Source: Burkholderiales bacterium (GTDB lineage: Bacteria > Pseudomonadota > Gammaproteobacteria > Burkholderiales > UBA6910). From it: a DNA stretch of 64,000 bases. Position numbers and translations under genes: made by a program. The notes below the pieces were generated by a model. The model did no database searches. It saw nothing but the letters and a program-made list of their open reading frames with translations, and was not told the origin of the DNA. Of the stretch, positions 24,670 to 54,414 are shown one piece after another. The stretch is from positions 1-64,000 of the forward strand of contig BPKG01000001.1 in the NCBI GenBank assembly GCA_026005015.1. The letters run 5' to 3'. Positions within the stretch are counted from its first letter, which is position 1. Each line of letters opens with the position of its first letter.

Positions 24670-25625
24670 TTACCAGACGGCAGCCCGGGCGGTGATGGGC
24701 CACAGGGCCTCGACCCGCCCCCCCTCGAACGGCCACGTACCAGTCGTAAAGGTTGACGGTGGGGTCGCAATGGCCCGGCACCAGGAGGAGCTTCTCCCCC
24801 CAGGGCCGGCAGCCTCGCCCCCGGCGCGGGCTCCAGCACCCTGTGCTCGTCCATGGCCCGGGGGGTAGACGATGTCCGGGCGGCCGTGGACCAGGGGCAG
24901 TCCCGAGTCCACCGCTGAAGGCTTTCAGGCCGGCGTCCACCACCGCACGGGAGGCCGCAGGCCGGCCCATGACCGTGGCGAGCACGAAAAGGCTCAGCTC
25001 AAAGGGGGGCGGAGGGGGCGAGGCCTCAGGCGCCCCCCCAGGTCCCTGGCGTAGTCCGCGTCCATGAAGACATAGGAACCCTACGGCTGCACCTCCCGGT
25101 AGGCGCCGCTGGCGGCCTCCAGCAGGTAGGTGCCGGTGCCGCCGCCGGTCACCCAGGGACAGGGGATGCCGTGGTTCTCCAGCAGCCCCACCGTGGCCCG
25201 CACGTGGCCCACGGCCGCGTCGATGGCGGCGCGCCGGCGGCCGCGTCCAGCTCGTCCACGTTGCCGGCATCGTCCACTCACACCGCCACCCGGGCCCGGC
25301 GGGCGAGGGCCGCGAGGCGCTCGAGCTTGCGCCGGCCGACCACCTCGTTGGACACCAGCATGTCGGCGATGCCCCCTTCCACCAGGGCCTCGGCCTCGCT
25401 CACTTTCTGGCAGCACACCCCCACCGCCCCAAGGGCCATCCGCCGGCGGGCGATCTCCGGGCACTTGTGACTCTTGGCGTGGGGGCGAAGCCGCACGGGC
25501 AGGCCCCGGAGGGAATCCGCCATGCGGCGCAGGTGACGCTCGAGAACGTCCAGGTCGACCAGGAGGGCCGGGGTGTCGACTTCCTCCAGGGGCATGCCGA
25601 ACTCAGCGGGCGGAGGTGGGGCCAT
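24670..25625 (-). pseudogene. D-threonine aldolase/DSD1-like PLP enzyme, decayed
   Basis: Remnant of an alanine-racemase-fold enzyme of the D-serine dehydratase/D-threonine aldolase family. The first part is intact (VDTPALLVDLDVLERHLRRM, then RLRPHAKSHKCPEIA with the PLP lysine, and GVCCQKVSEAEAL). The frame breaks near 25278. The middle reads WVTGGGTGTYLLEAA in another frame and hits a TAG at 25081-25083. Later pieces (VDAGLKAF, then DEHRVLEP and GHCDPTVNLYDWYVAVRG) are spread over all three frames. At least three indels plus an in-frame stop show a genuinely dead gene. Confidence 0.85.
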
Positions 25626-26663: not shown

Positions 26664-27284
26664 ATGGCCCAAGCTCCACCCGACGAAGACACTCCTGGCG
26701 AGAGCCCCCTCGACGTGGCGGGGTGGCTGACCCGGCACGGAGACGCGCTCCTCCATTATGCCCTCGTCATGGTAAAAAATGAAGAGCAGGCGAAGGACCT
26801 GGTCCAGGAGACCCTGCTCGCCGCCTGGAAGGGGCGCCACGGCTACCAGGGGCGGGCGTCGGAGAAGACCTGGCTCACCGCCATCCTCAAGAACAAGATC
26901 GCCGACCACTTCCGCGCGAGCGTCCGGGAGGCGCTGGCGGCCGGGCCCTTCGACCCGGACGCCATCGGGGCGGAGGACGAGGAGTCCTGGCGCGAGGACG
27001 GGCACCACGCCGTCCCGCCCGGGACCTGGGGCGACCCGGAGGCGAGCCTGGAGCGGGCCCGGTTCTGGGAGGCGGTCCAGGCGTGCCTGGACGATCTGGC
27101 CGAGCTCCAGCGCTCGGCCTTCGTCCTGCGAGAGGTCCACGGGATCGAGGCGGAGGCGATCTGTAAGGACCTGGGGATCACGGCGTCTAATTTATGGGTG
27201 TTGTTGCACCGGGCCCGCCATCGGCTGCGCCGATGCCTCGAAAAGCGGTGGTTCGAATCCGCCCAGAGAAACCGAGATCCATGA
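26664..27284 (+). CDS. ECF RNA polymerase sigma factor
   Basis: Group 4 sigma-70 factor of 206 residues from ATG 26664. Region 2 is ALVMVKNEEQAKDLVQETLLAAW with KTWLTAILKNKIADHFR; region 4 contains LAELQRSAFVLREVHG and the helix-turn-helix ICKDLGITASNLWVLLHRARHRLRRCLE. The stop overlaps the start of a zinc-finger anti-sigma gene (ATGA), a classic sigma/anti-sigma pair. A longer frame from 26556 exists but crosses the promoter. The signal it answers is unknown. It is a relative of the mercury-island sigma at 43048. Confidence 0.9.
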   Translation: MAQAPPDEDTPGESPLDVAGWLTRHGDALLHYALVMVKNEEQAKDLVQETLLAAWKGRHGYQGRASEKTWLTAILKNKIADHFRASVREALAAGPFDPDAIGAEDEESWREDGHHAVPPGTWGDPEASLERARFWEAVQACLDDLAELQRSAFVLREVHGIEAEAICKDLGITASNLWVLLHRARHRLRRCLEKRWFESAQRNRDP

Positions 27285-31793: not shown

Positions 31794-32216
31794 TCACCCT
31801 TCCGACAGGGTGGCGATGATGGGGCAGGCGAGCTTACCGCGGCGCGCGTGGCACTCGCCGATTAGGGCCTTGAGCACCCGGCGCATGCGCTGGAGGTCCG
31901 CGATGCGGCTCTCCACCGCCGCGAGCTTGGCCGTGGCCAGCCGCTGCGCCTCGGCACAACTTCGCCCGTCCTCGAGGGCGAGGAGGTTGCGGACTTCCTC
32001 CAGGGTGAAACCGAGCTGCTGCGCCCGCTTGATGAAGCGCACCCGGTCCACGGCCGTCCGGGGGTAGCGGCGCACGCCCCCGAAGGGCTTTTCCGGTTTA
32101 TCCATGAGCTTGCGCCGCTGGTAGAAGCGGATCGTCTCCACGTTGACTCCGGCGGCGCGGGCCACCTGCCCGACGGTCAACGTGTCCGCCGGTCCCGGTC
32201 CTTTCATCTTCGCCAT
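31794..32216 (-). CDS. merR: mercury-responsive regulator MerR
   Basis: A 140-residue MerR-family activator/repressor. The N-terminal HTH is LTVGQVARAAGVNVETIRFYQRR. The three Hg(II) ligands of MerR are present: C87 in GRSCAEA, and C122 and C131 in ECHARRGKLACPII with the exact C-X8-C spacing. ATG 32216 was chosen for its AAGGAGCGATC site. It is divergent from merA1 across a MerR-type operator. This is the only full-length, unbroken MerR with all three ligands in the island, so it probably serves the other operators too. Confidence 0.95.
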   Translation of the reverse strand: MAKMKGPGPADTLTVGQVARAAGVNVETIRFYQRRKLMDKPEKPFGGVRRYPRTAVDRVRFIKRAQQLGFTLEEVRNLLALEDGRSCAEAQRLATAKLAAVESRIADLQRMRRVLKALIGECHARRGKLACPIIATLSEG

Positions 32217-32225
32217 GATCGCTCC

Positions 32226-32256
32226 TTGACTGCGGACTATGGTACGCAATGCAGGC
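32226..32256 (+). promoter_or_regulatory. mer operator/promoter 1 (merA1)
   Basis: TTGACT (32226-32231), a 19-bp spacer and GCAGGC (32251-32256). Dyad GCGGAC-TATG-GTACGC fills 32232-32247, directly after the -35 box, the position MerR occupies at the Tn501 PmerT promoter. The -10 box is poor. Transcription from here would start near 32263, so merA1 must begin downstream of the ATG at 32249. Confidence 0.8.
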
Positions 32257-32293
32257 TATCCCCGTCCGAACCGTTTGGGAAGAAGGGGGCATC

Positions 32294-33691
32294 GTGACTT
32301 CTCTGCACATCGCGATTATCGGCAGCGGCTCGGCGGCGTTCGCCTGCGCCATCCGCGCCGCCGAGGAAGGGGCGCGGGTTACCATGATCGAGCGCGGAAC
32401 CTTGGGCGGCACCTGCGTCAACGTGGGTTGCGTGCCTTCCAAGGTGCTCATCCGCGGCGCGGAGATCGCCCGCCTGCAGGCGGCTCATCCGTTCGACGGC
32501 CTGGAGCGGCGGCGGCCGGTCATTCGCCGGAACGCCATGGTGGCCCAGCAGCAGGCGCTGGTGGATCGGTTGCGCCACGCCAAGTACCGCCGCGTCCTGG
32601 AGGAAAACCCTAACATCCGGCTGCTAGAGGGATCGGCGCGGTTTCGCGACTCCCACTCCCTCGTGGTCACCGGCCGCGACGGCCGGGAGGAGACCGTCGC
32701 CGCTGATCGCTTTCTCATCGCCACCGGCGCTTCCCCCGCTATCCCGCCGATCCCCGGCCTGGCCGGTACGCCTTACTGGACTTCTACCGAGGCCCTGGTG
32801 GCGGAGGAAGTTCCCGAACACCTGATCGTGCTGGGGGGCTCCGCCGTCGGGCTGGAGATCGGCCAGGCGTTCTTGCATCTGGGCGCCCGGGTGACCATCG
32901 TCGAGCTTCTCTCCCTGTTGCCCAGAATGGATCCCGACTTGGGAGCAGGGCTTCAGCACGTGCTGGAGGAAGAAGGCGCGCGAATCCTCACCCGGACCGA
33001 AGTTAAGCGGGTCGCGTACGCGGGCGGGCGCTTTACTCTCGATGCTGGGGCTGAGCAGATCACCGGCGACAGGCTGCTGGTGGCCACCGGCCGGCGGGCC
33101 AACACCCTGGGGCTCGGACTTGCGGAAATCGGGGTCGAGACCGACCGGGCGGGCGCCGTCCTAGTCGACCAGGGCCTGCGTACTTCGGTGCCCCATATCT
33201 ACGCCGCGGGCGACTGCACGGGCTTTCCCCAATTCGTGTACGTGGCGGCGGCGGCCGGCACCCGGGCCGCCATTAACATGCTGGGCGGGGATGCGCGCCT
33301 GGACCTCTCCACCATGCCCGCAGTGGTTTTCACTTCGCCCCAAGTGGCGGCGGTGGGGTTGACCGCGGAGGAGGCCCGGACGAGGGATTTCGAGGCGGAA
33401 AGCCGGACCTTGCGCCTGGAAGACGTTCCCCGGGCGCTCGCCAACTTCGATACCCGGGGCTTCGTCAAGCTGGTCGCGGAGCGGGGAAGCGGGCGACTGC
33501 TCGGCGCCCATGTGCTTGCCCCCGAGGCGGGGGAGATCATCCAGGCGGCCGCTCTCGCGCTGCGTGCCCGGATGACCGTGGCCGAGCTGGCCGATCAGCT
33601 TTTCCCCTACTTGACCATGGTGGAAGGCTTCAAGCTCTGCGCCCAGACGTTTACCAAGGACGTCAAGAAACTCTCCTGCTGCGCGGGATGA
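32294..33691 (+). CDS. merA: mercuric reductase MerA, without HMA head (copy 1)
   Basis: Flavoprotein that reduces Hg(II) to volatile Hg(0) with NADPH. From GTG 32294 it has 465 residues: FAD motif IAIIGSGSAAFACA, redox pair C41/C46 in [13 protein letters not shown], an NADPH-binding Rossmann fold, a dimerisation domain and the C-terminal Cys pair in KLSCCAG. The N-terminal heavy-metal-associated domain is absent. GTG is preferred because the frame's ATG at 32249 lies upstream of the expected transcript start; AGAAGGGGG precedes the GTG. Confidence 0.95.
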   Translation: MTSLHIAIIGSGSAAFACAIRAAEEGARVTMIERGTLGGTCVNVGCVPSKVLIRGAEIARLQAAHPFDGLERRRPVIRRNAMVAQQQALVDRLRHAKYRRVLEENPNIRLLEGSARFRDSHSLVVTGRDGREETVAADRFLIATGASPAIPPIPGLAGTPYWTSTEALVAEEVPEHLIVLGGSAVGLEIGQAFLHLGARVTIVELLSLLPRMDPDLGAGLQHVLEEEGARILTRTEVKRVAYAGGRFTLDAGAEQITGDRLLVATGRRANTLGLGLAEIGVETDRAGAVLVDQGLRTSVPHIYAAGDCTGFPQFVYVAAAAGTRAAINMLGGDARLDLSTMPAVVFTSPQVAAVGLTAEEARTRDFEAESRTLRLEDVPRALANFDTRGFVKLVAERGSGRLLGAHVLAPEAGEIIQAAALALRARMTVAELADQLFPYLTMVEGFKLCAQTFTKDVKKLSCCAG

Positions 33692-33708
33692 GGCAAGAGA
33701 AAGAGGCA

Positions 33709-34171
33709 ATGAAGACATACACGATCTCGAAACTGGCTCGGAACGCCAAGGTCAGCATCCATCTCGTGCACAACTATACCGAGCGTGGATTGCTAAGGGC
33801 ATGTGGCCGCACGCTCTCTGGTTATCGCATTTATGACGCGAGCGCCCTGGAGCGCCTGCGATGGATCCGCGCGGGGGAGAGCGGCTGGCATTCCTCTCGA
33901 TGCGTTGGCTGAAGTTGTTCACGCGCTGGACGAGGACGACGAACGACGAATGGCTCGCGGTGTCGCGACGATCCGAGCGTATATCGCAGGCGTGCGCAGC
34001 GCGTTGGCTGTTCTGGATGCCGCACTGATCGTCCTTCGGAAGCCGCCTGGACCCGGCAAAGAGGCCGTGGGCATCCCACGACCCACGCCCCGTGTGCGCC
34101 GATCGGCCGGCACACTCGGGACGCTTGAGCCGATTACCGCTTCGGAAGCCGAAATGCCCTCGGGCGCTTGA
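33709..34171 (+). pseudogene. merD: mer co-regulator MerD, frameshifted
   Basis: MerD resembles MerR but lacks Hg ligands, and it down-regulates mer expression. The start MKTYTISKLARNAKVSIHLVHNYTERGLL is MerD-like. The frame breaks at an extra T (33886) in an SG-G-IPLDALAEVV context; removing it joins the rest (LDALAEVVHALDEDDERRM... to the stop at 34171) and gives about 153 residues. As sequenced, translation stops after 67 residues. It follows merA1 by 17 bases. The -35 box of the next operator overlaps its stop codon. Confidence 0.82.
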
Positions 34172-34198
34172 CATTGTACTTAGGTACCTTCTCTAGCA
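34168..34198 (+). promoter_or_regulatory. mer operator/promoter 2 (merT operon)
   Basis: TTGACA (34168-34173), a 19-bp spacer and CTAGCA (34193-34198). Dyad TTGTAC-TTAG-GTACCT fills 34174-34189, in the same register as operator 1. It drives merT-merP-merA2 and probably the genes that follow. Confidence 0.85.
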
Positions 34199-34231
34199 TT
34201 CGCCACGATATTCATACCTTGGAGGTGATCG

Positions 34232-34660
34232 ATGTCGCGAGTCAAAGACCATGCGTTGGAAGCTGGAACACTCAAGGCGGAGCGTGCTTTGAACAGCCGC
34301 CAAAGTGCCAAAGACAAACTCGTAGGCGGTGCGCTGGCGGGAGGGGTGCTTGCCGCGGTCGGTGCATCGCTGTGCTGCCTGGGACCCCTGGTCCTAGTGA
34401 GCCTGGGCTTCGGGGGCGCCTGGATGGCGAACCTGACCGCGCTCGAGCCCTATCGACCCTTGTTTCTCGTCGCCGCGGTGACCGCCCTGGTTCTCGCCTA
34501 CCGCAAGCTCTACCGCGCCCGGCCGGAGCAAGCGTGCGCCTCCGGCGCTGTCTGCGCGACGCCGCGCGTCGATCGCCTGTACAAGGCTTTGTTTTGGGCC
34601 GTCTCCGCGCTGGTCTTGCTGGCCGGGGCCTCACCCTACCTTGCCCCCCTGTTCTACTGA
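34232..34660 (+). CDS. merT: mercuric ion transporter MerT
   Basis: Inner-membrane protein that takes Hg(II) from MerP and passes it to MerA. The 142 residues have a longer N-terminal cytoplasmic segment than usual, then TM1 with the Cys pair C48/C49 (GASLCCLGPLVL), a cytoplasmic loop with C102 and C108 (ACASGAVCAT), and TM3. A strong TTGGAGGTGATCG site precedes the ATG. It is the first gene after mer operator 2. Confidence 0.95.
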   Translation: MSRVKDHALEAGTLKAERALNSRQSAKDKLVGGALAGGVLAAVGASLCCLGPLVLVSLGFGGAWMANLTALEPYRPLFLVAAVTALVLAYRKLYRARPEQACASGAVCATPRVDRLYKALFWAVSALVLLAGASPYLAPLFY

Positions 34661-34688
34661 TTAACCCTATGTATAGGAGATCCAGGGA

Positions 34689-36694
<2,006 letters not shown>

Positions 36695-36731
36695 GGGAGC
36701 GGCGCAATGACGAAGAGCAGGACAGGACCAT

Positions 36732-37100
36732 ATGCTAGCGGATCTGATCAAGCAATTCGGCAGCGTTTTGGGAGCGGGGTTCGCCGCCGCGTGCTGCCTC
36801 GGCGTGACCGCGGCGCTCTCGGCGGTCACCGCTATCGGCGCGGGCTTCCTGATCAACGACGCGTTTCTCATCCCGCTTTATGGAGCGCTTCTCGGACTGA
36901 GCGTCTGGCTCCTTTATCGTTCGACACGGGCCCACGGCAGCCCCGCTCCGTTCTACCTGGGGCTGAGCGGGGCAATCGTCGCGCTCGTGGGGTTATGGGT
37001 CGGCCCTTTTTTGGTTTACGGGGGGCTTGCCGCGATTGTCGCCGGGAGCGTCTGGGATTTTCAAAGGAAGCGCCGGCAACGCGCTTGTTCGAGTAATTGA
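36732..37100 (+). CDS. merC: MerC-like mercury transport membrane protein
   Basis: A 122-residue membrane protein with four predicted helices. An adjacent Cys pair C21/C22 (AAACCLGV) lies in the first helix, as mercury transporters need, and the C-terminal SVWDFQRKRRQRACSS resembles the MerC tail. It is shorter than Tn21 MerC and also has MerF-like features, so the exact subfamily is uncertain. It lies 37 bases after merA2. Confidence 0.75.
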   Translation: MLADLIKQFGSVLGAGFAAACCLGVTAALSAVTAIGAGFLINDAFLIPLYGALLGLSVWLLYRSTRAHGSPAPFYLGLSGAIVALVGLWVGPFLVYGGLAAIVAGSVWDFQRKRRQRACSSN

Positions 37101-37150
37101 TGTTTACCGGCCGGGCCCATTGGCGTTTTTTCCATAGGGGAGGTCACGCC

Positions 37151-37795
37151 GTGAAGAAATCGGACAACATGCGCTCGTTCCGTCTCGGGGCGTACTCGTC
37201 CATGTCCGCCAGTGTGCTCAGAGTCTCCTTAGGCTGCCGGGCCGCTCCGGGACTCGGTTGCGGTTCGCGCGCCAAACCGTTGTTAGAAGCGCTGGAGCGG
37301 GAATCCTCCGTCGCGCAGGCCTGGCTCCACCGCTCTGGGACGATGCTGTGCTTGGTGTGGAAGAGTGCAACCCCCAGCGCTCAAACGCTGAAAGCGCTTC
37401 TTCTAGTCCACGGTCTGACAATGGAGGAGGAGATAAAGGGAATTGAGCGGGAGCAGGCGTTGAAAGATCTTGTTTTCGGCATCGGCTGGTATCGTGGAGC
37501 GCAGGTGGATCGGCTCAGCGAAGAAGAGGCCGAAGTCATAGCGGCGAGGCTAGTGCGTAGATTACGCAAGAGGCTACCGCTGCCCGATGGGCAAAGCGAA
37601 ACGCTACAGGCTGCTTTCGCCGAGGTTTGCCGACACGAGTTCATCAACTACTCCCCGGAGCCGGAACAGGCACGCCGAGAGAGAATATTCCAAGGAATCA
37701 TGGCGGCCGGGAGGCGATATCTCAGCATAGGGCAGCTTGGCGTGCTGCAAAAAGTGATCTCGGCGGGGTACCGTCCGATTTCGGACAGGGATTGA
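37151..37795 (+). CDS. unrecognised protein between merC and merB
   Basis: A 214-residue soluble protein from GTG 37151, which has a GGGGAGG site 8 bases upstream; a longer frame opens near the merC stop. The N-terminal part carries a Cys motif SLGCRAAPGLGCGSRAKP and a third Cys in GTMLCLVWK. The C-terminal half is a helical domain (RLSEEEAEVIAARLVRRLRK, EVCRHEFINYSPEPEQ). No signal peptide or membrane segment is visible. The position recalls merG, which lies between merA and merB in some organomercurial operons, but MerG is exported and I see no real similarity. Confidence 0.6.
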   Translation: MKKSDNMRSFRLGAYSSMSASVLRVSLGCRAAPGLGCGSRAKPLLEALERESSVAQAWLHRSGTMLCLVWKSATPSAQTLKALLLVHGLTMEEEIKGIEREQALKDLVFGIGWYRGAQVDRLSEEEAEVIAARLVRRLRKRLPLPDGQSETLQAAFAEVCRHEFINYSPEPEQARRERIFQGIMAAGRRYLSIGQLGVLQKVISAGYRPISDRD

Positions 37796-37799
37796 CTCA

Positions 37800-38450
37800 A
37801 TGGTGGAAGTGGGTCGAGCGCAGCGCAGGGCCCGGGTCCTCGAATCGCTGGACCGACTCCGGCGCGATTTTCCCCTGGAGGAGCGGATCAAGCGGGCTCA
37901 GCCAGCAGTGCAGGCCGTGTATGCCCAGGTGATTTTGCATTGGGTGCGCCATGGGATGCCGCCGCGAGCCGACATAGCGCCCCTTGCGGTTCTCGACGAG
38001 CTGACTGCGATGGACGCCTTGGTGATGGGCGAAAGCGGCATTGGTTGCTATCCCTTCAGCGCGCGCAAGACCGGCATCCGGGTGCAGTATTCGGGCAGCC
38101 CTGTCTACGCGATGTGCGCCATCGACGCGCTTGCCATCCCGCGGCTGGTCCGGCGGCCGGTTCGCATCGAAGCGCGCTGCACGGTTTGCCGGTGCCGCCT
38201 AGCCTGCGATCTGGAGGCCAACGGCGCGCTGCCCCATGATTTCGACCGAGGAATCCGCATCCTGTGGGAGCCATCCGCGTCTCACGCGGGCCCGTGCTGC
38301 GACAGCTTGTGTGCCGGGATTACCTTCATCTGCCGCTACTGCTCGGTCCCGGGAGAGTCCGCCGCTTTTTCGTTGCCTGAAGCCGCAGCGATCGGGAACG
38401 CGTTTTTCGCGTTCCAGCACAAGCTCTTAGAGCACTACGGGCCTCTGTGA
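37800..38450 (+). CDS. merB: organomercurial lyase (MerB family)
   Basis: Cleaves the carbon-mercury bond and delivers Hg(II) to MerA. The 216-residue protein aligns to MerB around YPFSARKTGIRVQYSG (RETSYVF region of E. coli MerB) and VYAMCAIDALAIP: C106 and D109 match the catalytic C96 and D99. C166/C167 in HAGPCCDSLC match the C159/C160 pair at nearly the same spacing. Additional cysteines (RCTVCRCRLAC, FICRYC) are unusual and may be a metal site. It is a divergent member; activity is likely but unproven. Confidence 0.82.
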   Translation: MVEVGRAQRRARVLESLDRLRRDFPLEERIKRAQPAVQAVYAQVILHWVRHGMPPRADIAPLAVLDELTAMDALVMGESGIGCYPFSARKTGIRVQYSGSPVYAMCAIDALAIPRLVRRPVRIEARCTVCRCRLACDLEANGALPHDFDRGIRILWEPSASHAGPCCDSLCAGITFICRYCSVPGESAAFSLPEAAAIGNAFFAFQHKLLEHYGPL

Positions 38451-38477
38451 CAGCGCTACACGAATCGGGAGCAGTCG

Positions 38478-39425
38478 GTGTCTACCATCTCTAGCGATAG
38501 GGCTTCGGCTGGAACAAGGCCGGTCGATCCTGCCCTTGGGATCGAGCCGCCGGTAGCGCTGGTCCTGTGCGGCGGCAACAGTCGGGGTGCCTTGCAGGTC
38601 GGCTTCTACTGGGCGTTGTGGGAGCTGGGGTTGCGCCCCGATTTCGTCATTGGAAGCTCGATCGGTGCCTTGAATGGAGCGTTCATCGCGGCAGGAATGA
38701 GCCCGGATGCGCTGGCGGAGCTTTGGCTCAAATTCCGGCGCAGGGATGCCCTCTCGTGGAACCTGCCGTGGCTGTTCGGCTTGCGTGACCAACCCGGGCT
38801 GTTCAGCCTGGAACGTCTGCGTCGAACCCTGCGGCAAGCCCTCCCTGTCCAGCGCTTCGAAAAGCTCGAGATGCCATTGACCGTGGTGACCACCGATCTG
38901 CAGCTCGGCGCGCCTGTTTACTGGTCTGGCAGTGGGGATCTCATCGAGCCCGTCGTGGCTAGCATGAGTCTCCCGGGGCTGTTTCCGCCTGTCGTCATCG
39001 GCGCCCACCAGCATGTAGACGGCGGTGTGGCCAACAAGGCCCCCCTGGACAGGGCTTACGAATTAGGCGCCCGTACCGTGCTGATGATCGAATGTGTCTG
39101 CTGCGATCCGGTCCTGAAACGCTACATTAGCCTGCTCGAAGTAATGACCCGGAGTTTTTCCATCGCCATGGACAGCAAGTACAACGTCGATCTCGAGCGG
39201 TTGGGCTCTCTGGTTCGTATCCATGTGGTGCGTCCCAGGCTGGCCTGGGATATCGGGCTGCTCGACTTTTCCTACACGGCAGAGCTGATCGAGGCGGGCT
39301 ACCGGCAGAGCATCGAGTATCTTGTCCCCCTTGCGCAGGCGCAGAATGCCCTGACGTGTGCTCCTGTAGTTCCGGGAGCGAGCGGAACGGACACGCTCAC
39401 CGGCCTGGTAGAGAGAAGCTCATGA
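38478..39425 (+). CDS. patatin-like phospholipase
   Basis: A 315-residue lipid acyl hydrolase with the complete patatin dyad: oxyanion motif CGGNSRGALQVG (31-42), nucleophile S61 in GSSIG and D181 in VDGGVA. No signal peptide is visible. It sits in the mercury operon, 27 bases after merB and 4 bases overlapping the following merR-type gene, so it is probably co-transcribed. A role in membrane repair after Hg damage is conceivable but is only inference. Confidence 0.85.
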   Translation: MSTISSDRASAGTRPVDPALGIEPPVALVLCGGNSRGALQVGFYWALWELGLRPDFVIGSSIGALNGAFIAAGMSPDALAELWLKFRRRDALSWNLPWLFGLRDQPGLFSLERLRRTLRQALPVQRFEKLEMPLTVVTTDLQLGAPVYWSGSGDLIEPVVASMSLPGLFPPVVIGAHQHVDGGVANKAPLDRAYELGARTVLMIECVCCDPVLKRYISLLEVMTRSFSIAMDSKYNVDLERLGSLVRIHVVRPRLAWDIGLLDFSYTAELIEAGYRQSIEYLVPLAQAQNALTCAPVVPGASGTDTLTGLVERSS

Positions 39426-39875
39426 CCAGCCGCGCCCTGACCATCGGAAAGCTGGCCAAAGCGGCCGGCGTGATCGTCGAGACGATCCGCTATTACCAAA
39501 GAATCGGCCTGATCGAACAGCCGCAGAAGCCTGCTTACGGCTTCCGCCATTATCCGCAGGATACGGCGGATCGGGTGCGGTTCATCAAGCGGGCCCCAGC
39601 AGCTTGGGTTCAGTCTCGACGAGATCAGGGAACTGCTTGCGCTGGACGCGGGACGCTGCGACGACGCGCGGCAGCTCGCCGCGAACAAGCTTACCCAGAT
39701 TGGCGCGCGCATTGCCGCCCTTCAGGCCCTGCAGCACACGCTGCAGGTGATGATGGAAGCTTGCGAACGAAAAGAAGCGGGCCTTAAGTGCCCGGTCGTC
39801 GAGGCGCTCATCGGGAATCGGCAGGACATGGACAGACGCCGGAACGGGGCTCCGGTGAAGCGCGCGGTAAAATGA
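39422..39875 (+). pseudogene. merR: second mercury-type MerR regulator, frameshifted
   Basis: A MerR regulator of about 150 residues after removing one extra C in the run 39594-39597. The N-terminal part has the HTH (LTIGKLAKAAGVIVETIRYYQR) and HYPQDTADRVRFIKRA. The shifted frame continues QQLGFSLDEIRELLALDAGRCDDA, with all three Hg-type ligands (Cys in GRCDDA, then C-X8-C in EACERKEAGLKCPVV). As sequenced it would end in a scrambled tail at 39787. Its stop overlaps the EAL gene start (ATGA). Confidence 0.82.
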
Positions 39876-40681
39876 TGCCCGATGTGACGGCCTTGCGACT
39901 CGCGCTCCAACAGGGCGAGCTGCGGCTTTATTATCAGCCCTCGGTGGATCTGCGCTCAGGAGTCGTGAACGGGGTGGAGGCGCTTCTCCGATGGGAACGG
40001 CCGGGGCGGGAGATCCGGTTGCCTTCGACGTTCATCTCCCTCGCCGAGGAGTCCGGGCTCATCGTGTCTCTCGGCGTCTGGGTATTGCGCACCGCGTGCG
40101 AGCAAGCCAAGGCTTGGCAAAGGAACAGCCTGAGCGGATTGACCGTCGCGGTCAACGTCTCGCCCTGGCAGTTCCAGGAAGGGCACCTGCACGAGACGGT
40201 GGCCAGGATCCTGGGGGAGACGGGCCTTGCGCCCGAGGGGCTTGAGCTCGAGATTACCGAGAGCATCGCCATGGCGCGCGAGGAACACGCCATCGCATCC
40301 CTCAAGGCGTTGAAGGCAATGGGCGTGAACCTCTCGATCGACGATTTCGGCACGGGCTATTCGTCGCTCGCTCAGCTCCAGTGCTGTCCGGTAAGCAAGC
40401 TCAAGATCGATAGTTCGTTTGTCGGCAATCTTGCACGCAACACGCCGGACAAAGCGATCGTCCAAGCGATTGTCTTTCTCGGTCATAGCCTTGACATGAG
40501 GGTCACGGCCGAAGGCGTGGAGACCGAGCAACAGCTCGAACTGCTGCGCGGTTATGGCTGCGACGAAATCCAGGGATTCCTCGTGAGCCCGGCCGTGCGT
40601 GCAGAGATGGTTCCCGGCGAGCTAAAGCGTTGGGGGATCAAAGCCGCATCGGAGCGTGAGCCGTGTCCTCGAGACCTCTGA
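39872..40681 (+). CDS. EAL-domain cyclic-di-GMP phosphodiesterase
   Basis: A stand-alone 269-residue EAL domain with no sensor or membrane region. The catalytic motifs are in place: EALLRW (36-41), LELEITES, IDDFGTGYSSL, KIDSSFV and AEGVET, ending with CDEIQGFLVSPAV. It should hydrolyse c-di-GMP. Translationally coupled to the upstream MerR-type gene and running into the next one, it is tied to mercury regulation by position. Confidence 0.88.
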   Translation: MMPDVTALRLALQQGELRLYYQPSVDLRSGVVNGVEALLRWERPGREIRLPSTFISLAEESGLIVSLGVWVLRTACEQAKAWQRNSLSGLTVAVNVSPWQFQEGHLHETVARILGETGLAPEGLELEITESIAMAREEHAIASLKALKAMGVNLSIDDFGTGYSSLAQLQCCPVSKLKIDSSFVGNLARNTPDKAIVQAIVFLGHSLDMRVTAEGVETEQQLELLRGYGCDEIQGFLVSPAVRAEMVPGELKRWGIKAASEREPCPRDL

Positions 40682-41149
40682 CGGTTGGACAGCTTGCCCG
40701 CAAGACCGGCGTCCACGACCAGGGCGATCCGGCATTCCGAGCGTCTGGGGCTGATCAAGGCCGCGGGTCGCACGGGCGCGAACTACCGGGTTTTCGGCGC
40801 CGGCAGCGTTACCCGCCTGAACTTCATTGCGAGATGTCGTTCCCTGGGCTTCTCTCTCCCGGAGGTCAAGGATCTGCTTTAGGTCATGGAGGGTCCTCGT
40901 TACACCTGCGCTTAGGTCGAGAACCTTGCGAGGCAGCACCTGAATCTCGTCGATGCAAAGTTTAGAGAGCTCTTGGCGGTACGCCGCGCACTTGCTCGAG
41001 AGCTTAACCGTTGCACCGGCGAGGAAGTTCCCGATTGCCGGCTGCTGGAACACCTTCAGCCGAGCACCGCCATAGAAATCCGGGCCGGCGTGCGGACGCG
41101 AACCCCCGCAAAAGGCCGTCCTAGCACGCCGGCCGATCAGGGCGCATGA
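40663..41149 (+). pseudogene. third MerR-family regulator, decayed
   Basis: A remnant of a MerR-type gene. It starts at GTG 40663 with LTVGQLARKTGV, shifts frame near 40711, continues as TTRAIRHSERLGLIKAAGRTGANYRVF in overlapping parts and RCRSLGFSLPEVKDLL, then meets an in-frame TAG at 40880-40882 and another about 30 bases on. After that the same frame still encodes VENLARQHLNLVDAKFREL and a C-terminal C-X7-C (RCTGEEVPDC). A frameshift plus two stops make it inactive. It most resembles CueR-like members. Confidence 0.8.
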
Positions 41150-41226
41150 GGGCCCTTAACTTTTTTCCGTCCACCCGGGGATGTGGTTGGTTGTAGTGTG
41201 GGGTGGCTGAACGATAGGAGGGAAGG

Positions 41227-41510
41227 ATGTCAAAGCGTCAATGGATCGTTGTGCAAGTGGAGGGTATGACTTGCGACGGTTGCGCTGCCCCATGTGCGGA
41301 AAGCGCTTTCCGCAATGGAGGGGGTCGAAGAAGTCCGGCTGCCCAATTGGCAGGCTGGCAAGGCGGAGGTGGCTGGTCAAAGGCGAGCTGGCCGACGAGA
41401 CCATCGCCCGTGCGGTCGAAAGCGCAGGTTACCGGGCGCTCGTGCGCGAGCGACGCGAGCTGGACGCCGGGCGCAAGGTTCCGCAGAGGCGAGGCGGACA
41501 GACTACGACC
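41227..41510 (+). pseudogene. HMA head of merA3, broken by three indels
   Basis: ATG 41227, with a GGAGGGAAGG site, begins MSKRQWIVVQVEGMTCDGC, a normal HMA metal motif. The domain then jumps frames: RKALSAMEGVEEVRLPNW in the second frame, VKGELADETIARAVESAGYR in the third, and back to the second at TDYDLVIVGGG. The likely indels are an extra C at about 41288-41291, an extra G near 41372 and a compensating change near 41500. Each piece is well conserved, so the lesions are recent or technical. Confidence 0.75.
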
Positions 41511-42895
41511 TCGTGATCGTGGGCGGCGGCTCGGCGGCCTTCGCTGCGGCGATCAAGGGCGCCGAGCTGGGCGCCAAGGTTGCCATCGTCGAGCACGGCA
41601 CCCTCGGCGGCACCTGTGTCAACATCGGGTGCGTGCCGTCCAAGACGCTCATCCGCGCGGCCGAGCACTGCTACCACGCTGCCTATTCCGCCTTTGAGGG
41701 ACTGGGCGCTTGTCCGCCACCTCAGGACTGGCAGCGCGTCGTCCGGCAGAAAGACGAGCTGGTCGCCGCCCTGCGGCAGGGCAAGTACGTCGACGTAGCA
41801 AGCGCTTATCCCGGCATCACCATCGTGAAAGGCCACGCCGAGCTCACGGGCGGCCACGGCGTCGCCGTGGACGGCAAGCCCTTGAGCGCTGCCAAGCTCC
41901 TGGTGGCCACGGGCTCGAAGCCCTGGGCACCGCCGATTCCGGGTCTTGCCGAGTCGAGCTACCTCGACAGCACCGACGCCCTGAGCCTGGAGCGCTTACC
42001 CGCGACCCTCGCGGTGATCGGTGCTGGTGCGATCGGGCTCGAGCTCGCGCAGCTCTTCAACCGCTTCGGCGTCAAGGTCACGCTCCTCGAGGCCGGCCCC
42101 CGCATCGCACCTCAGGAGGAGCCCGAAATCGGGAAGGCCCTGTGCCGCTACCTCGAGGAAGAAAAAATGCAGGTGCTTTGCGGCGCGGCGATCGAGCGTG
42201 TGAGCCGGAGCGAGGCCGGCTACCGGCTTGAGGCCGTCGTGGATGGCAAGATCCGCGCGATCGAATCCGAGCAGTTGCTCGTTGCCACCGGCCGTCGGCC
42301 GACCACGGCCGGCTTCGGCCTCGAGCGTGCCGGGGTGAAGCTCGGCGAAAGGGGCGAGATCCTCGTCGACCGGCACTTGCGCACCGATAACCCGGATATT
42401 TTCGCCGCCGGCGACTGCATCGGCGATCCCATGTACGTTTATGTGGCGGCTTACGCCGGAAGCCTCGCCGCCGAGAACGCTCTCACCGATGCGGGCCGGA
42501 TCTACGATCTCGTGCCGCTGCCGCGGGTGACCTTCACCGACCCCCAGATCGCCAGCGTCGGTCTGACCGAAGCTCAGGCGCGGGCCGAAGGCAGAAAAGT
42601 GCGCGCGTCGGTGCTGTCGCTCAGCGAGGTTCCCCGCGCTATCGCGGCTCGGAATACGAAGGGGCTTATCAAGCTGGTGGCCGAGGAGGACACCGGCAAG
42701 CTGCTCGGCGCTCACGTGCTGGCGGCCGAGGCTGGCGAAGTGACCCAGGAGGCCGTCCTTGCTATCCGCTTCGGCTTGCGGGTGCAGGACCTCGTCGAGA
42801 CGTTCCACCCATATCTCACCATGGTCGAGGGCCTGAAACTCGCCGCGATAACGTTCACCAAGGACGTGAAGCAGCTCTCCTGCTGCGCTGCGTAG
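41294..42895 (+). CDS. merA: mercuric reductase MerA core (copy 3)
   Basis: An open frame of 533 codons whose first 70 codons are partly scrambled HMA sequence. From about 41510 it encodes a complete MerA core: LVIVGGGSAAFAAAIKGAELG, redox pair in GGTCVNIGCVPSK, an NADPH fold (AVIGAGAIGLELAQLF), AAGDCIGDPMYVYVAA and the terminal Cys pair in QLSCCAA. It differs from copies 1 and 2 along its length (NIGC, HCYHAAYSAFEGL) and so belongs to another MerA lineage. No MerR-type operator stands in front of it. Translation may start at 41227, 41294 or an internal GTG. Confidence 0.85.
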   Translation: MRKALSAMEGVEEVRLPNWQAGKAEVAGQRRAGRRDHRPCGRKRRLPGARARATRAGRRAQGSAEARRTDYDLVIVGGGSAAFAAAIKGAELGAKVAIVEHGTLGGTCVNIGCVPSKTLIRAAEHCYHAAYSAFEGLGACPPPQDWQRVVRQKDELVAALRQGKYVDVASAYPGITIVKGHAELTGGHGVAVDGKPLSAAKLLVATGSKPWAPPIPGLAESSYLDSTDALSLERLPATLAVIGAGAIGLELAQLFNRFGVKVTLLEAGPRIAPQEEPEIGKALCRYLEEEKMQVLCGAAIERVSRSEAGYRLEAVVDGKIRAIESEQLLVATGRRPTTAGFGLERAGVKLGERGEILVDRHLRTDNPDIFAAGDCIGDPMYVYVAAYAGSLAAENALTDAGRIYDLVPLPRVTFTDPQIASVGLTEAQARAEGRKVRASVLSLSEVPRAIAARNTKGLIKLVAEEDTGKLLGAHVLAAEAGEVTQEAVLAIRFGLRVQDLVETFHPYLTMVEGLKLAAITFTKDVKQLSCCAA

Positions 42896-42978
42896 CCGGG
42901 CTCACCTTGTGTTATCCCTATCGGCATCGGGGTTAGGCTCGCTTGCCAGGGGTGCCGAAGTCTTGAGAAAAACCCTGC

Positions 42979-43009
42979 TTGACTCTGTATCCGAGTACCG
43001 CGTCTAGCC
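42979..43009 (+). promoter_or_regulatory. mer operator/promoter 3 (ECF sigma gene)
   Basis: TTGACT (42979-42984), a 19-bp spacer and CTAGCC (43004-43009). Dyad CTGTAT-CCGA-GTACCG fills 42985-43000, in the same register as operators 1, 2 and 4. The ECF sigma ATG lies 38 bases after it. Confidence 0.78.
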
Positions 43010-43047
43010 TTTGATACGAGGGCGCCCTGTGAGCAAGCCATGGCACC

Positions 43048-43800
43048 ATGAGTCAAAGCGGTATGACGGGAGATACCATGCCCCCCAACCATCGCATCGC
43101 CCAGCCGGTCAATGGCGGTCGCCCGCTGGGGGGACAGGTAGACCCCGCATCGCTGCAGCCCCATCTTGGTTACCTGTACCGCTTCGGGTTGGCACTAGCC
43201 CGCGACCCCGAGATGGCGCGCGAGGCGGTCCAGGAAGCCCTGGTCTGCGCGTTAGAGAATCTGGCGTCGTTCGAGGGGCGCTCGTCGCTGCGTTCGTGGC
43301 TGGCCAGTATTGTCAAGCACCAGATCATTGATTTGCAGCGGGAAGCCACGCGGCGGGTAGCGATTGACTTCTCGCCGGACTGGGAGAGCGATGAAGAAAG
43401 CGCACAAGGGGAGCTTGCCCATGGAGCGACGAGGGATTTTATCGTCGACGGGCGCACGCCGGAGCAGGCGATGGAGGCTCGCGAGCTCTGGAACGTGGTT
43501 GGCCGCTGTCTCTCCGGAATGCCCGAGAAGCGAGCGCAAGCCTTCGTCCTACGGGTGCTCATGGGCGAACCCCTCGGCGTAGCCTGTAAGGCGGCAGACG
43601 CGGTTTCTATGAACGCCTGTTCAGCGATGCTGTGGCGAGTGAAAGCCTGTCTGCGACGGTGCCTTGTGCGGGCCGGTTACATGACTTCGTGTGCCCCGGC
43701 AGAGAATTGTTGCTGCACGTCGCGTGCAGGGTCGGCGGGGGAGGGGGCCGCCTCCCAGGAAGGTGACGGCCTAAGACGGAAAAAGATGCGAGGAGGGTGA
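43048..43800 (+). CDS. ECF sigma factor with cysteine-rich tail, in the mercury island
   Basis: A 250-residue group 4 sigma factor. Region 2 is RFGLALARDPEMAREAVQEALV with SLRSWLASIVKHQIIDLQRE (about 45-98); region 4 is MPEKRAQAFVLRVLMGEPLGVAC with an HTH-like NACSAMLWRVKACLRRCL (about 158-206). It is a relative of the sigma at 26664, but no anti-sigma gene follows. Instead it has ten cysteines, including C215 and C221-C223 in the tail, like the Cys-rich domains of CorE-type metal-sensing sigma factors. A MerR-type operator precedes it. ATG 43078 is an alternative start. Confidence 0.82.
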   Translation: MSQSGMTGDTMPPNHRIAQPVNGGRPLGGQVDPASLQPHLGYLYRFGLALARDPEMAREAVQEALVCALENLASFEGRSSLRSWLASIVKHQIIDLQREATRRVAIDFSPDWESDEESAQGELAHGATRDFIVDGRTPEQAMEARELWNVVGRCLSGMPEKRAQAFVLRVLMGEPLGVACKAADAVSMNACSAMLWRVKACLRRCLVRAGYMTSCAPAENCCCTSRAGSAGEGAASQEGDGLRRKKMRGG

Positions 43801-43804
43801 CCTT

Positions 43805-44443
43805 ATGAGTAACAGTGTGAATATCGGTACCGCACTTCCTAGGTTGAAAATCACACGGGATCCCATTTTGGCGAGACCGGCTTTCCTCGCGCCGGGGATG
43901 CTCAAACCGGATGCGCTCGCCCTGAACGTCATGACCGACTTTCGGCAGGTAACCCCGATCACCGTGGACGGCGGGATTTCCATCGACCAGGCTCTGCAGC
44001 ACATGATCCATTCGGGCGTGCGGCTGCTGTTCGTGACCGGCCGCGATGCCCGCTTGATCGGGCTCATCACCGCCGACGATATCCAGGGGGAGAAGCCGTT
44101 GCGATACCTGCAGGCGATCGAATGCAAGGATCGGAGCTGTTCCCGGCGCGATGTCCTGGCCCGGAACATCATGACGCCCGTGGCCGACTGGGAAGTACTG
44201 GACTACGAGGCCGTGCGCCGGGCGAGCATCGCCCAGGTGGTCGCCACCTTCAAGGCCACAGGATGCCGCCACCTGGTGGTGGTCGAACGCCCACCCGAGC
44301 CTGGCCGGTGCATCGTGCGGGGCCTTTTTTCGGCGAGCCGGCTCGAGCGGGAGCTCGGCCTGGGTATCGATGTTCTGTGCATGGCCAAGAGTTTCGCCGA
44401 CATCGAACGAGTGCTCGCACATCCTCATGGCGAGTGCGACTGA
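43805..44443 (+). CDS. CBS-domain pair protein
   Basis: A 212-residue cytoplasmic protein with two CBS domains (about 45-95 with VTPITVDGGISIDQALQHMIHSG, and 120-200 with IMTPVADWEVLDYEAV), which usually bind adenine nucleotides. No catalytic domain is attached. It starts 5 bases after the ECF sigma gene and precedes merE, so all three probably share operator 3. Its regulatory target is unknown. Confidence 0.8.
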   Translation: MSNSVNIGTALPRLKITRDPILARPAFLAPGMLKPDALALNVMTDFRQVTPITVDGGISIDQALQHMIHSGVRLLFVTGRDARLIGLITADDIQGEKPLRYLQAIECKDRSCSRRDVLARNIMTPVADWEVLDYEAVRRASIAQVVATFKATGCRHLVVVERPPEPGRCIVRGLFSASRLERELGLGIDVLCMAKSFADIERVLAHPHGECD

Positions 44444-44476
44444 AAGGTTTGACCGAGATTTGTGGAGGAAAATCGA

Positions 44477-44722
44477 ATGAACTCCGAAAAAAGCGCCGTC
44501 CGGCGGCGAGGCGGTTACGCCATGATGTTCCTCGCTGCGCTGACCTGCCCTTGCCACTTGCCTGTTCTTGCGCTTTTGCTCTCGGGGACTGCAGCGGAGG
44601 CCTTTCTGACCGAGCACATGGGAGTGGCGTTGACGGTGCTGGGGGCCTTGTTCCTGCTCTCGCTGTCCGCCGCCATGCGGCTGTTGCGGAATGACGCTGC
44701 GCGAGGAGGATCGAATTTGTAG
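44477..44722 (+). CDS. merE: mercury transporter MerE
   Basis: A small inner-membrane protein of 81 residues with two helices and the MerE signature LTCPCHLPVLALLLSGTAA (C24 and C26). MerE of Tn21 transports both Hg(II) and methylmercury. ATG 44477 is chosen because the upstream GTG is part of the GGAGG ribosome site. It is the last mercury gene before the insertion-sequence remnant. Confidence 0.9.
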   Translation: MNSEKSAVRRRGGYAMMFLAALTCPCHLPVLALLLSGTAAEAFLTEHMGVALTVLGALFLLSLSAAMRLLRNDAARGGSNL

Positions 44723-44764
44723 TTTTTTGCAAAGCTCAAAAGGAAAGGTGAGCATAAATGGGTA

Positions 44765-45450
44765 GAACCTATCTCAAAATTGTTGTCTGTGCGCGCATGA
44801 GTTCCTAGAATTGGGTTCATGCTGCGTTTGAGCGACGAACAATGGGAGCGAATTCGGGAGCATTTCCCTGAGGAGAACATTCCCGAAGGTCGCGCAGGGC
44901 GCAAGCCCGTGCCGGCGCGCGAGGTGCTCGAAGCGGTACTTTGGATTCTGAACACCGGCGCGCAGTGGCACATGCTTCCGCAGTGCTACCCGAACTACAA
45001 GACGGTGCATCGGCGCTTTCAGCGCTGGTGCGAACGCGAGATACTGCGCGAGATCCTGAAGGACTTGGCCAACACGCTTCGCGAGGAAGGCGAGATCGAC
45101 GAGCGCGAGAGCTTTATCGATGCCACCTTTGCCTCGGCCAAGGGCGGAGGCGAAGAGGTTGGCAAGACCAAGCGCGGCAAGGGCGTGAAGATCCTGGCGA
45201 TCGTGGATCGCCATGGACTGCCGCTGTCGGTGAGCACGCATGCGGCCAACCACCACGAGGTGAGGCTGGTGCAGTTGAGCTTCGACTTCTACATGATCGA
45301 AGCAAAGCCCGAGAATCTTATTGGTGATCGCGCCTACGACAGCGACACCCTGGACCAGGAGCTGAAGAAGGAGGGCGTGGAACTCATTGCCCCGCATCGT
45401 TCCAACCGCAAGCTCAAGACCCAGGACGGGCGACGGCTTCGGCGCTACGC
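44765..45450 (+). mobile_element. IS5-type insertion sequence remnant
   Basis: One left end is probable around 44765-44785 (GGTAGAACCTATCTCAAAA), followed by a transposase gene. No matching inverted copy of that end occurs before or beyond 45450, so the right end is lost. The remnant sits exactly between the mercury island and an AraC gene. Its outer limits are approximate. Confidence 0.6.
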
Positions 45451-45517
45451 CCTTTATGAACCATCGCTACCGGTGTGCCCTCTTGTCGACGAAAAGCGCC
45501 CGGCCCGATTCCCGTGA
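44819..45517 (+). pseudogene. IS5 family transposase, 3'-truncated
   Basis: The first 210 codons are a typical IS5-family DDE transposase: LSDEQWERIREHFPEE, TGAQWHMLPQCYPNYKTVHRRFQ, the first Asp in ESFIDATFASAKGGG, and the second in NLIGDRAYDSDTLD. The usual third motif (a Glu near KRRWKVERTFAWL) is missing: after GRRLRRYA the frame runs into unrelated DNA and ends at 45517 inside the opposite AraC gene. It is therefore inactive. Confidence 0.85.
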
Positions 45518-46394
45518 TCTTCTTGAAGACCTTGCCGAAGGCGGCTTCGGAGCGATAGCCCACCTTCTCCGCCACTACCGCTGTAGAAAGGCGCGTCTCG
45601 GCCAGCAGCTCCCGCGCCTTTTGCATGCGCCAGAGGGTCAGGTATTCCATGGGCGGCTGACCGACCAGTTGCTTGAAGCGGGCGGCAAGGGCCGAACGGG
45701 ACATGCCGACGCGGGCGGCCAGCGAGACCAGGGTCCAGGACTGCTCAGGAGCCCGGTGCAGGTGTGCGAGGGCCGCGGCGATCTGGCGATCCGTGAGCGC
45801 CGCGAGCATCCCCGGCGGCGCGGGGGACTGCTGGATGTAGGCCCGCAGCATCAGGATGAACAAAGCCTCCGCGAGCCGATCGACCACCGCCTCCGCGCCG
45901 GGGCGCCCGGCCTTCGTCTCCTGGAGCATGAGATCCAACGTCGTCTTGAGCCCGCTGAAGTCATGGCTGTCGGCCCCGCGGATGAGGATGAAAGGCGGCA
46001 GGGCCGCCAGCAGCGGATGCCGGTTGTCGCGGTCGAACTTGAAGTAGCCGCACAGAATCGTCGTCAGGGCGCCTTCTCCGCCGTGGGCGACGGGCCCATA
46101 GCCCTCCAGGTCCTGATCTGCCAGGAGCTTTTCGGCGGGAATCGCTTCGCTCTCCGGCGCATCGATCAGCTCATGGGGGTCACCCCGGAGAAAAACCGCC
46201 AGGTCACCGCCATGCAAGGGGATCGGCGCGGGCTGACCGGGCAGGCGAAGCCAGCAGCTTCCCCGGACTACCACATGGAACTCGGCGACCGGCTGGGGTC
46301 CGATTCCCATGCCCCAGGGCGCCCTGAATTCGCAGCGGAAATAGACCCCGCCGGCCAGACGCAGGGAGCGCAAGATATCCGTCAATACATCCAT
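45414..46394 (-). CDS. AraC family transcriptional regulator (Cupin_6 type)
   Basis: A 326-residue regulator with an N-terminal cupin sensor (GGVYFRCEFRAPWGMG, LRLPGQPAPIPLHGGDL) and a C-terminal double HTH (WTLVSLAARVGMSRSALAARFKQLVGQPP, VAEKVGYRSEAAFGKVFKKITGIGP). The last 25 or so residues after GAFRR probably come from the insertion-sequence remnant, so the original stop may have been lost. It is divergent from the AhpD-like gene, its likely target. Related members regulate redox or electrophile-stress genes. Confidence 0.88.
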   Translation of the reverse strand: MDVLTDILRSLRLAGGVYFRCEFRAPWGMGIGPQPVAEFHVVVRGSCWLRLPGQPAPIPLHGGDLAVFLRGDPHELIDAPESEAIPAEKLLADQDLEGYGPVAHGGEGALTTILCGYFKFDRDNRHPLLAALPPFILIRGADSHDFSGLKTTLDLMLQETKAGRPGAEAVVDRLAEALFILMLRAYIQQSPAPPGMLAALTDRQIAAALAHLHRAPEQSWTLVSLAARVGMSRSALAARFKQLVGQPPMEYLTLWRMQKARELLAETRLSTAVVAEKVGYRSEAAFGKVFKKITGIGPGAFRRQEGTPVAMVHKGRSAEAVARPGS

Positions 46395-46530
46395 GACATC
46401 ACTTTAGTTTTGGACGTTCGCACAAGAATTTTATATTTTTAATGATAGTTCGTGCTGAATGCCTGGACTAGAGTATAGGCGCCTTCCGCTTGGAAGGAAC
46501 TTATCAACTCAAGCTCAAGGAGAAAGCAAG
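46395..46530. promoter_or_regulatory. AraC/AhpD divergent control region
   Basis: An AT-rich gap of 136 bases. Plus-strand promoter TTGGAC (46410-46415), 16 bases, TATATT (46432-46437). The 8-base motif GTTCGCAC at 46417 recurs as GTTCGTGC near 46448 in direct orientation, a pattern expected for an AraC-type regulator. Confidence 0.5.
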
Positions 46531-53897: not shown

Positions 53898-53929
53898 GGG
53901 GAAACAAGATTTATTAACATTTCCACCCT

Positions 53930-53960
53930 TGACCCTGTACTAACGTACACAGAATAAATT
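53930..53960 (+). promoter_or_regulatory. MerR-type operator/promoter 4
   Basis: TTGACC (53930-53935), a 19-bp spacer and ATAAAT (53955-53960). Dyad CTGTAC-TAAC-GTACAC fills 53936-53951, in the same register as the three operators of the mercury island. The MerR-family gene begins 25 bases downstream, so the regulator probably controls itself. Confidence 0.85.
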
Positions 53961-53985
53961 TGCCTCCGCCAAGCGAGGAGGGGGT

Positions 53986-54414
53986 ATGGAAGGGTGGACC
54001 ATCGGGGAAGTGGCCCGGCGGGCGGGCGTCGGCGTCGAGACGATCCGCTTCTACGAGCGGGAAGGGCTGATCGAGCAGCCTCCCCGGCCGAAGGGCTCGG
54101 GCTATCGCCGCTACCCGGAGGCCACCGTCCTCCGCATCCGCTTCATCCGCCAGGCGCGGGATCTGGGTTTTTCCCTCAAGGAAATCGGCGAGCTGATCCA
54201 CCTGCGGGGGCTCCCCGGTGCGGACGCCTCCCAGGTGCGCGCCTGGGTGGAGACCCGACTCGCCCAGGTGGACCAGCGCATCGACAAGCTCCAGCGGTTG
54301 AGGCGCGTCCTCGAAGCCCTGATCGCCACCTGCCCGATGGAAGGGCCCCTGTCCCAGTGCGCTATCATCCACGCCCTGGAGCAGGGCGTCATCGCGATCC
54401 AGACTGAAGAATAG
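53986..54414 (+). CDS. MerR family regulator, orphan, metal specificity uncertain
   Basis: A 142-residue MerR-family protein: HTH WTIGEVARRAGVGVETIRFYER, long dimerisation helix, and C116/C125 with C-X8-C spacing (CPMEGPLSQCAII) as in MerR, ZntR and PbrR. The first ligand of those sensors (a Cys near position 80) is absent; the region reads GLPGADASQVRAW. Either another ligand completes the site or it senses something else. No transporter or reductase gene follows, only a convergent gene. GGAGGGGGT precedes the ATG. Confidence 0.88.
   Translation: MEGWTIGEVARRAGVGVETIRFYEREGLIEQPPRPKGSGYRRYPEATVLRIRFIRQARDLGFSLKEIGELIHLRGLPGADASQVRAWVETRLAQVDQRIDKLQRLRRVLEALIATCPMEGPLSQCAIIHALEQGVIAIQTEE

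Follow-up and report, generated by a model that had tools for sequence, protein, structure and literature searches.

Results

A sigma factor gene in a mercury-resistance island

The window, by which we mean the whole 64-kb stretch of DNA that was analysed, carries a mer island at 31794-44722, comprising three copies of merA, three of merR (one intact, two damaged), merT, merP, and genes for MerC-like and MerB-like proteins. The GC content of its central part is lower than that of its flanks. From its left end, the island holds the intact merR (31794-32249, minus strand; TIGR02051, 160.5 bits against a cut-off of 150.85), merA1 (32249), which runs divergently in the opposite direction, merT (34232), merP (34689), a second merA (34988), the genes for the MerC-like (36732) and MerB-like (37800) proteins, the two damaged merR copies (39437-39809 and 40634-41014), interrupted by frame changes or stops, a gene for an EAL protein (39788), and the third merA (41227-42895, plus strand; TIGR02053, 566.7 bits). 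The catalytic part of this last merA is intact, and its N-terminal HMA domain is spread over several frames (41257-41500). The damage to the merR copies and to the HMA domain represents either assembly indels or pseudogenes. Outside the island, a short open reading frame (ORF) at 25278-25625 on the minus strand resembles the N-terminal part of a longer alanine-racemase-like enzyme, by eye a possible frameshift.

Downstream of the third merA, on the plus strand, lie a 250-residue ORF for an ECF sigma factor (43048-43800), a gene for a CBS-domain protein of 212 aa (43805-44443; Pfam CBS, 38.7 bits), and then merE (44462-44722; NF010310, 88.5 bits with a cut-off of 80), for which the ATG at 44477 is the likelier start; an IS5-type transposase ORF is found at 44819. 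Relatives of the CBS protein were present in 56 of 150 genomes. The idea that the CBS, merE, and sigma factor genes form a mobile unit was rejected, neither merA nor merE being found near any CBS locus retrieved from other genomes.

The 43048 ORF is an ECF sigma factor whose sigma2 and sigma4 regions share a reading frame. Pfam Sigma70_r2 gives 44.5 bits (cut-off 24), and Sigma70_r4_2 gives 14.5 bits, which is below its cut-off, with region 4 still alignable up to residue 211. TIGR02943 is the top NCBIfam model, although at 112.2 bits the protein misses the curated family threshold of 162.2 and is here called TIGR02943-like. Translation probably starts at Met11 (ATG at 43078), because GGGAG stands 5 nt ahead of this codon; the protein would then have 240 residues, and the numbering of the 250-residue ORF is kept throughout. 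Searches of solved structures returned distant ECF sigma factors only (best E 3.1e-05), and a defence library held no match to the sigma factor or to the CBS protein. An ECF promoter motif sought upstream of the sigma factor homologues gave nothing convincing, with matches confined to closely related genomes, and no target promoter was identified.

A predicted MerR-type promoter ahead of the sigma factor gene

Between the end of the third merA (42895) and the sigma factor gene, the sequence at 42979-43010 on the plus strand (TTGACTCTGTATCCGAGTACCGCGTCTAGCCT) reads as a predicted MerR-type promoter/operator, with a -35 element TTGACT, an interrupted dyad (TCTGTAT-CCGA-GTACCGC), and a -10-like TAGCCT after 20 bp (or CTAGCC after 19). 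The mer symmetry given in the consulted part of PMC11049809 is TCCGTAC-N4-GTACGGA, lying in the spacer, adjacent to the -35 element. A pattern of 19 positions combining TTGAC with the mer symmetry was scored on both strands of the 64 kb. The exact overlap of its two parts follows what we take to be the usual register. The three top distinct sites lie at 32226 between merR and merA1 (16/19), at 53929 ahead of a merR-like gene (15/19), and at 42979 (15/19), and the maximum reached in 40 second-order Markov sequences of 64 kb was 14/19.

The merT promoter (34168-34200, plus strand), itself of MerR type, served as the standard of comparison: across the window, this promoter and the 42979 site match one another better than they match any other sequence, at 22/33, the next chance matches standing at 20. 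A looser pattern with at most one mismatch, composed after the sites had been seen, matched the 3.38-Mb genome four times (42979, merT, 53929, and 1226660), three of these within the window, with 0 matches in a reversed control. With its -35 TTGAC overlapping a dyad of GTAC-N4-GTAC type and its long spacer (19-20 bp by eye), the 42979 sequence belongs by its letters among predicted MerR-regulated promoters, here that of the sigma factor gene. The intact merR, 11 kb away in the same island, encodes the candidate regulator. Separately, far from the mer island, a MerR-type promoter precedes the merR-like gene at 53929-54414, which scores 122 bits with TIGR02051, under the cut-off.

The missing anti-sigma gene and a same-genome paralogue

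An earlier note on this DNA had stated that no anti-sigma gene follows the sigma factor gene and that a related sigma factor at 26664 has a coupled zinc-finger anti-sigma, and both statements proved accurate. The anti-sigma profile reaches at best 2.0 bits in 43600-46500, and the ZAS anti-sigma adjoining the 26664 gene scores 68.9 bits with NF052368. In the whole genome, this model has two matches only, both elsewhere and each beside another sigma factor.

Of 47 homologous loci (L002-L048), 44 passed an E 1e-15 filter into the alignment, the three weakest (L004-L006) being left out; as the best matches of whole-genome searches, they are not a random sample. A ZAS anti-sigma gene lies at most 700 nt downstream in 42 of the 44, by a profile built on ten seeds; these came from the window and from the genomes that supplied the homologues, which makes a match at the seed loci inevitable. 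Only L002, a paralogue in the same genome, and L027 are without such a gene at this distance. Each adjoins another ECF gene and a gene for a DUF3379 protein, a pair that we infer to control them, and control at synthesis may thus replace the anti-sigma at these loci.

The closest relative found is L002 (46% identity), which has neither an anti-sigma gene nor the C-terminal tail described below. In the tree, the window's sigma factor (P0001) pairs with L002 at a support of 99/99, but, because its branch is very long (3.13), its position is more uncertain than this value suggests. Loss of the anti-sigma probably preceded the appearance of the tail, and since the paralogue lacks both, the missing anti-sigma does not imply self-sensing. 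Peptide scans of genome_contigs and viral_contigs and a tblastn search of plasmids gave no orthologue closer than this paralogue; the plasmid search returned 75 records, all below 60% identity (31% among the matches listed, 40 of the 75). Likewise, whole-genome searches of overlapping sets of 150, 399, 369, and 398 genomes gave nothing nearer to the sigma factor.

In 20 wider homologue loci, tblastn detected a gene for an MNIO (bufferin-type) enzyme in seven, four of them confirmed by Pfam, and genes for DUF2282 bufferin precursors come next after the sigma factor genes of L062 and L063. Buf1 clusters containing sigma factor genes are mentioned in the portion of PMC12452194 that we consulted. 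In view of the MNIO and DUF2282 genes near its homologues, the window's sigma factor is best seen as a relative of sigma factors, some of them near copper-buffering clusters, that moved into the mercury island. In L061, the region at 8065-9177, behind the paralogous sigma factor gene, encodes a SoxA/TsdA-type cytochrome and a small protein full of NPCAAK repeats, with 20 and 10 Cys; an MNIO gene sought by tblastn in the 15-kb stretch of L061 was not found.

Cysteines of the C-terminal tail

The ORF contains ten cysteines, at residues 67, 154, 180, 191, 201, 205, 215, 221, 222, and 223, in agreement with the count, coordinates, and numbering of the earlier note; the 44 aligned homologues have 3-7. 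Four of the ten (C215, C221, C222, and C223) fall within the C-terminal tail, encoded together with the stop codon at 43681-43800 on the plus strand (residues 212-250). C154 and C180 are each Cys in 44/44 homologues, C205 in 43/44, and C191 in 33/44, and C67 and C201 are Cys in 0/44. Beyond the alignment column of residue 209, each homologue has another 3-22 residues without any Cys (0/44), against 41 residues and four Cys in the window's sigma factor, and such a tail occurs in none of the 44. By this alignment, therefore, four of the ten cysteines are ordinary family cysteines, whereas the tail is private to the window's sigma factor. Homologues that share the family cysteines also have, in 42 of 44 cases, a zinc-finger anti-sigma gene. 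C154, C180, and C205, all three in region 4, hardly vary among the TIGR02943-like sigma factors that have ZAS anti-sigmas (44 homologues), and it is possible that they form a redox or metal site intrinsic to the family as a whole.

The Cys content of the tail is a genuine oddity, albeit one picked post hoc. In random open 39-codon tails of the window's composition, the probability of at least four Cys is P = 0.014 and that of a CCC run P = 0.00025, for a feature chosen after the fact. Codon-position bias is absent from the tail, the 3' end of its coding sequence includes the ribosome-binding site of the CBS gene, and a single-sequence structure model, itself poor (pLDDT 43), gives it no secondary structure. 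The earlier note had allowed that a frameshift at the 3' end might have produced the tail by accident. Inside the sigma domains this does not hold: the other two frames are without a family match, and a frameshift within sigma4 was rejected on these grounds. A lost stop near residues 210-220, on the other hand, is possible. The motif MTSC in the tail resembles anti-sigma starts, and the corresponding idea of an anti-sigma remnant was dropped after the anti-sigma profile gave no match.

One way to accommodate the tail cysteines is a control in two layers, in which MerR would govern synthesis of the sigma factor while its C-terminal cysteines, perhaps together with C201 and C205, would bind Hg(II) and modulate the protein or switch it off. 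The analogy is with OrbS of Burkholderia, for which the consulted excerpt of PMC9023288 describes promoter control by Fur together with Fe(II) sensing through four Cys at the C terminus. It agrees with the excess of tail Cys over chance, with C201 and C67 being likewise private, and with the absent anti-sigma. Selection on the tail, however, cannot be shown because no relative has one, and the structural model, such as it is, offers no folded element. We consider this arrangement unlikely, and slightly more so its fuller version, a two-layer mercury cascade that would be the Hg counterpart of Fur/OrbS and would derive from a duplicated, anti-sigma-less relative of the sigma factors associated with bufferin clusters.

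Divergence of region 4.2

Compared with L002, the window's sigma factor is identical at 45/70 positions of sigma2 and at 11/34 of region 4.2 (residues 177-211), versus 19-22/34 between L002 and four other homologues, and its region 4.2 has a one-residue insertion relative to the TIGR02943-type family. It breaks 5/18 conserved columns in sigma2 and 5/16 in sigma4; the 44 homologues break 0-5 in each of the two, most of them 0 or 1, and nearly all of them 0-2 in sigma4. The divergence of region 4.2, together with the long branch (3.13), could mean loss of function, and altered -35 recognition would give the same pattern in region 4.2 as erosion.

If the gene is eroding, the sigma factor would be losing its function in a stretch of mer genes already partly decayed, and the tail would be read-through past a lost stop codon. 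Such a process is suggested by the collapse of identity in region 4.2, with 5 of 16 conserved region-4 columns violated, by the long branch, by the lack of codon-position bias in the tail, and by the frame changes or stops that break the merR copies at 39437 and 40634 and the HMA domain of merA, all of them upstream. With region 4.2 so sharply diverged and the upstream neighbours damaged, erosion is a serious rival. Nevertheless, the frame is open across sigma2, the linker, and sigma4, sigma2 is well kept relative to L002, the CBS and merE genes that follow appear undamaged, and the frameshifts in the neighbouring genes may be assembly errors; overall, we regard erosion as doubtful.

Discussion

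A possible path to mercury control of the sigma factor

The explanation that we put forward as the likeliest, at even chances, is that of a MerR-controlled, lineage-specific duplicate sigma factor recruited into the mer island, with the tail as a recent private extension and not as the main sensor. A lineage-specific sigma factor of TIGR02943 type would have arisen as a duplicate of a same-genome sigma factor already devoid of a zinc-finger anti-sigma gene, and the mer island would have acquired this duplicate downstream of a promoter of MerR type. MerR carrying Hg(II) would switch on the predicted promoter at 42979, and a unit of sigma factor, CBS protein, and MerE would be produced only when mercury is present. 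Because it has no dedicated anti-sigma, the sigma factor would be active as made, and mercury control would consequently act on its synthesis, at the level of transcription. The DNA itself shows the family, the promoter letters, and the lack of an anti-sigma gene, and comparison shows that relatives have no tail of this kind; for the rest, MerR would have to bind the site, and the protein to be active and to drive other genes. Counting against this account are the modest -10 match, which needs a spacer of 19-20 bp, the post hoc choice of the genome-wide pattern, the strong divergence of region 4.2 with the long branch, and the motif search that gave no convincing target promoter.

As the MerR-type promoter would already explain mercury control, direct sensing of Hg(II) by the tail is possible but not needed. 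A narrow search of the open-access literature found no paper naming a mercury-resistance unit in which MerR governs an alternative sigma factor. Should the promoter function as read here, this would be such a case, in which mer control is extended from one operon to a sigma factor regulon, and the tail would offer a test of whether an on-board metal switch can arise quickly in a sigma factor whose anti-sigma has been lost.

Comparison with known systems

The TIGR02943-type sigma factors with small ZAS (NF052368-type) anti-sigmas, some of which lie near bufferin/MNIO genes, share with the window's sigma factor C154, C180, C205, and a conserved sigma2. Unlike them, it scores below the model's cut-off, has no anti-sigma, and shows a diverged region 4.2, a private Cys tail, and a mer context.

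CorE and CorE2 of Myxococcus xanthus (former ECF44, ECF238) are alike in having no linked anti-sigma, in their metal-resistance context, and in a short Cys-containing C-terminal extension, of 38 aa in CorE (as given in the section of PMC3107203 consulted) and of about 40 aa here. From this likeness, the earlier note had proposed that the sigma factor could sense Hg(II) itself. In outline, the Cys-rich extension, the missing anti-sigma, the length, and the genetic context do fit, but the CorE motifs are absent. In CorE-type proteins, the linker between sigma2 and sigma4 contains a CXC (from the available part of PMC8999054), and the invariant Cys of the CorE CRD, 181, 184, 192, and 194, form C-X2-C-X7-C-X-C (same section of PMC3107203). 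The window's sigma factor, in contrast, has no Cys between 67 and 154, so no linker CXC, its tail Cys (215, 221-223) do not follow the CRD spacing, and a MerR-type promoter lies upstream of its gene. As an explanation, self-sensing falters further in that the earlier note had missed the 42979 promoter and had counted among the ten Cys four that are merely family cysteines. A constitutive sigma factor with direct Hg(II) sensing by the tail as its main switch would be in keeping with the lack of an anti-sigma and with four Cys in an extension close in size to the CorE CRD; set against this are both missing CorE motifs, the MerR-type promoter, and a paralogue that lacks the anti-sigma and the tail alike, and we judge it highly improbable.

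OrbS of Burkholderia cenocepacia (ECF243) is similar in having no anti-sigma, C-terminal Cys, and a metal-regulator site at its own promoter. The window's sigma factor differs from it in lacking the C-X2-C-X3-C-X5-C spacing and in having TIGR02943 as its best profile, and MerR would activate where Fur represses. The mer operons of Tn501 and Tn21, finally, resemble the island in their MerR-type promoter, merA, and merE. They presumably differ from it in gene order, the window having the sigma factor and CBS genes between merA and merE.
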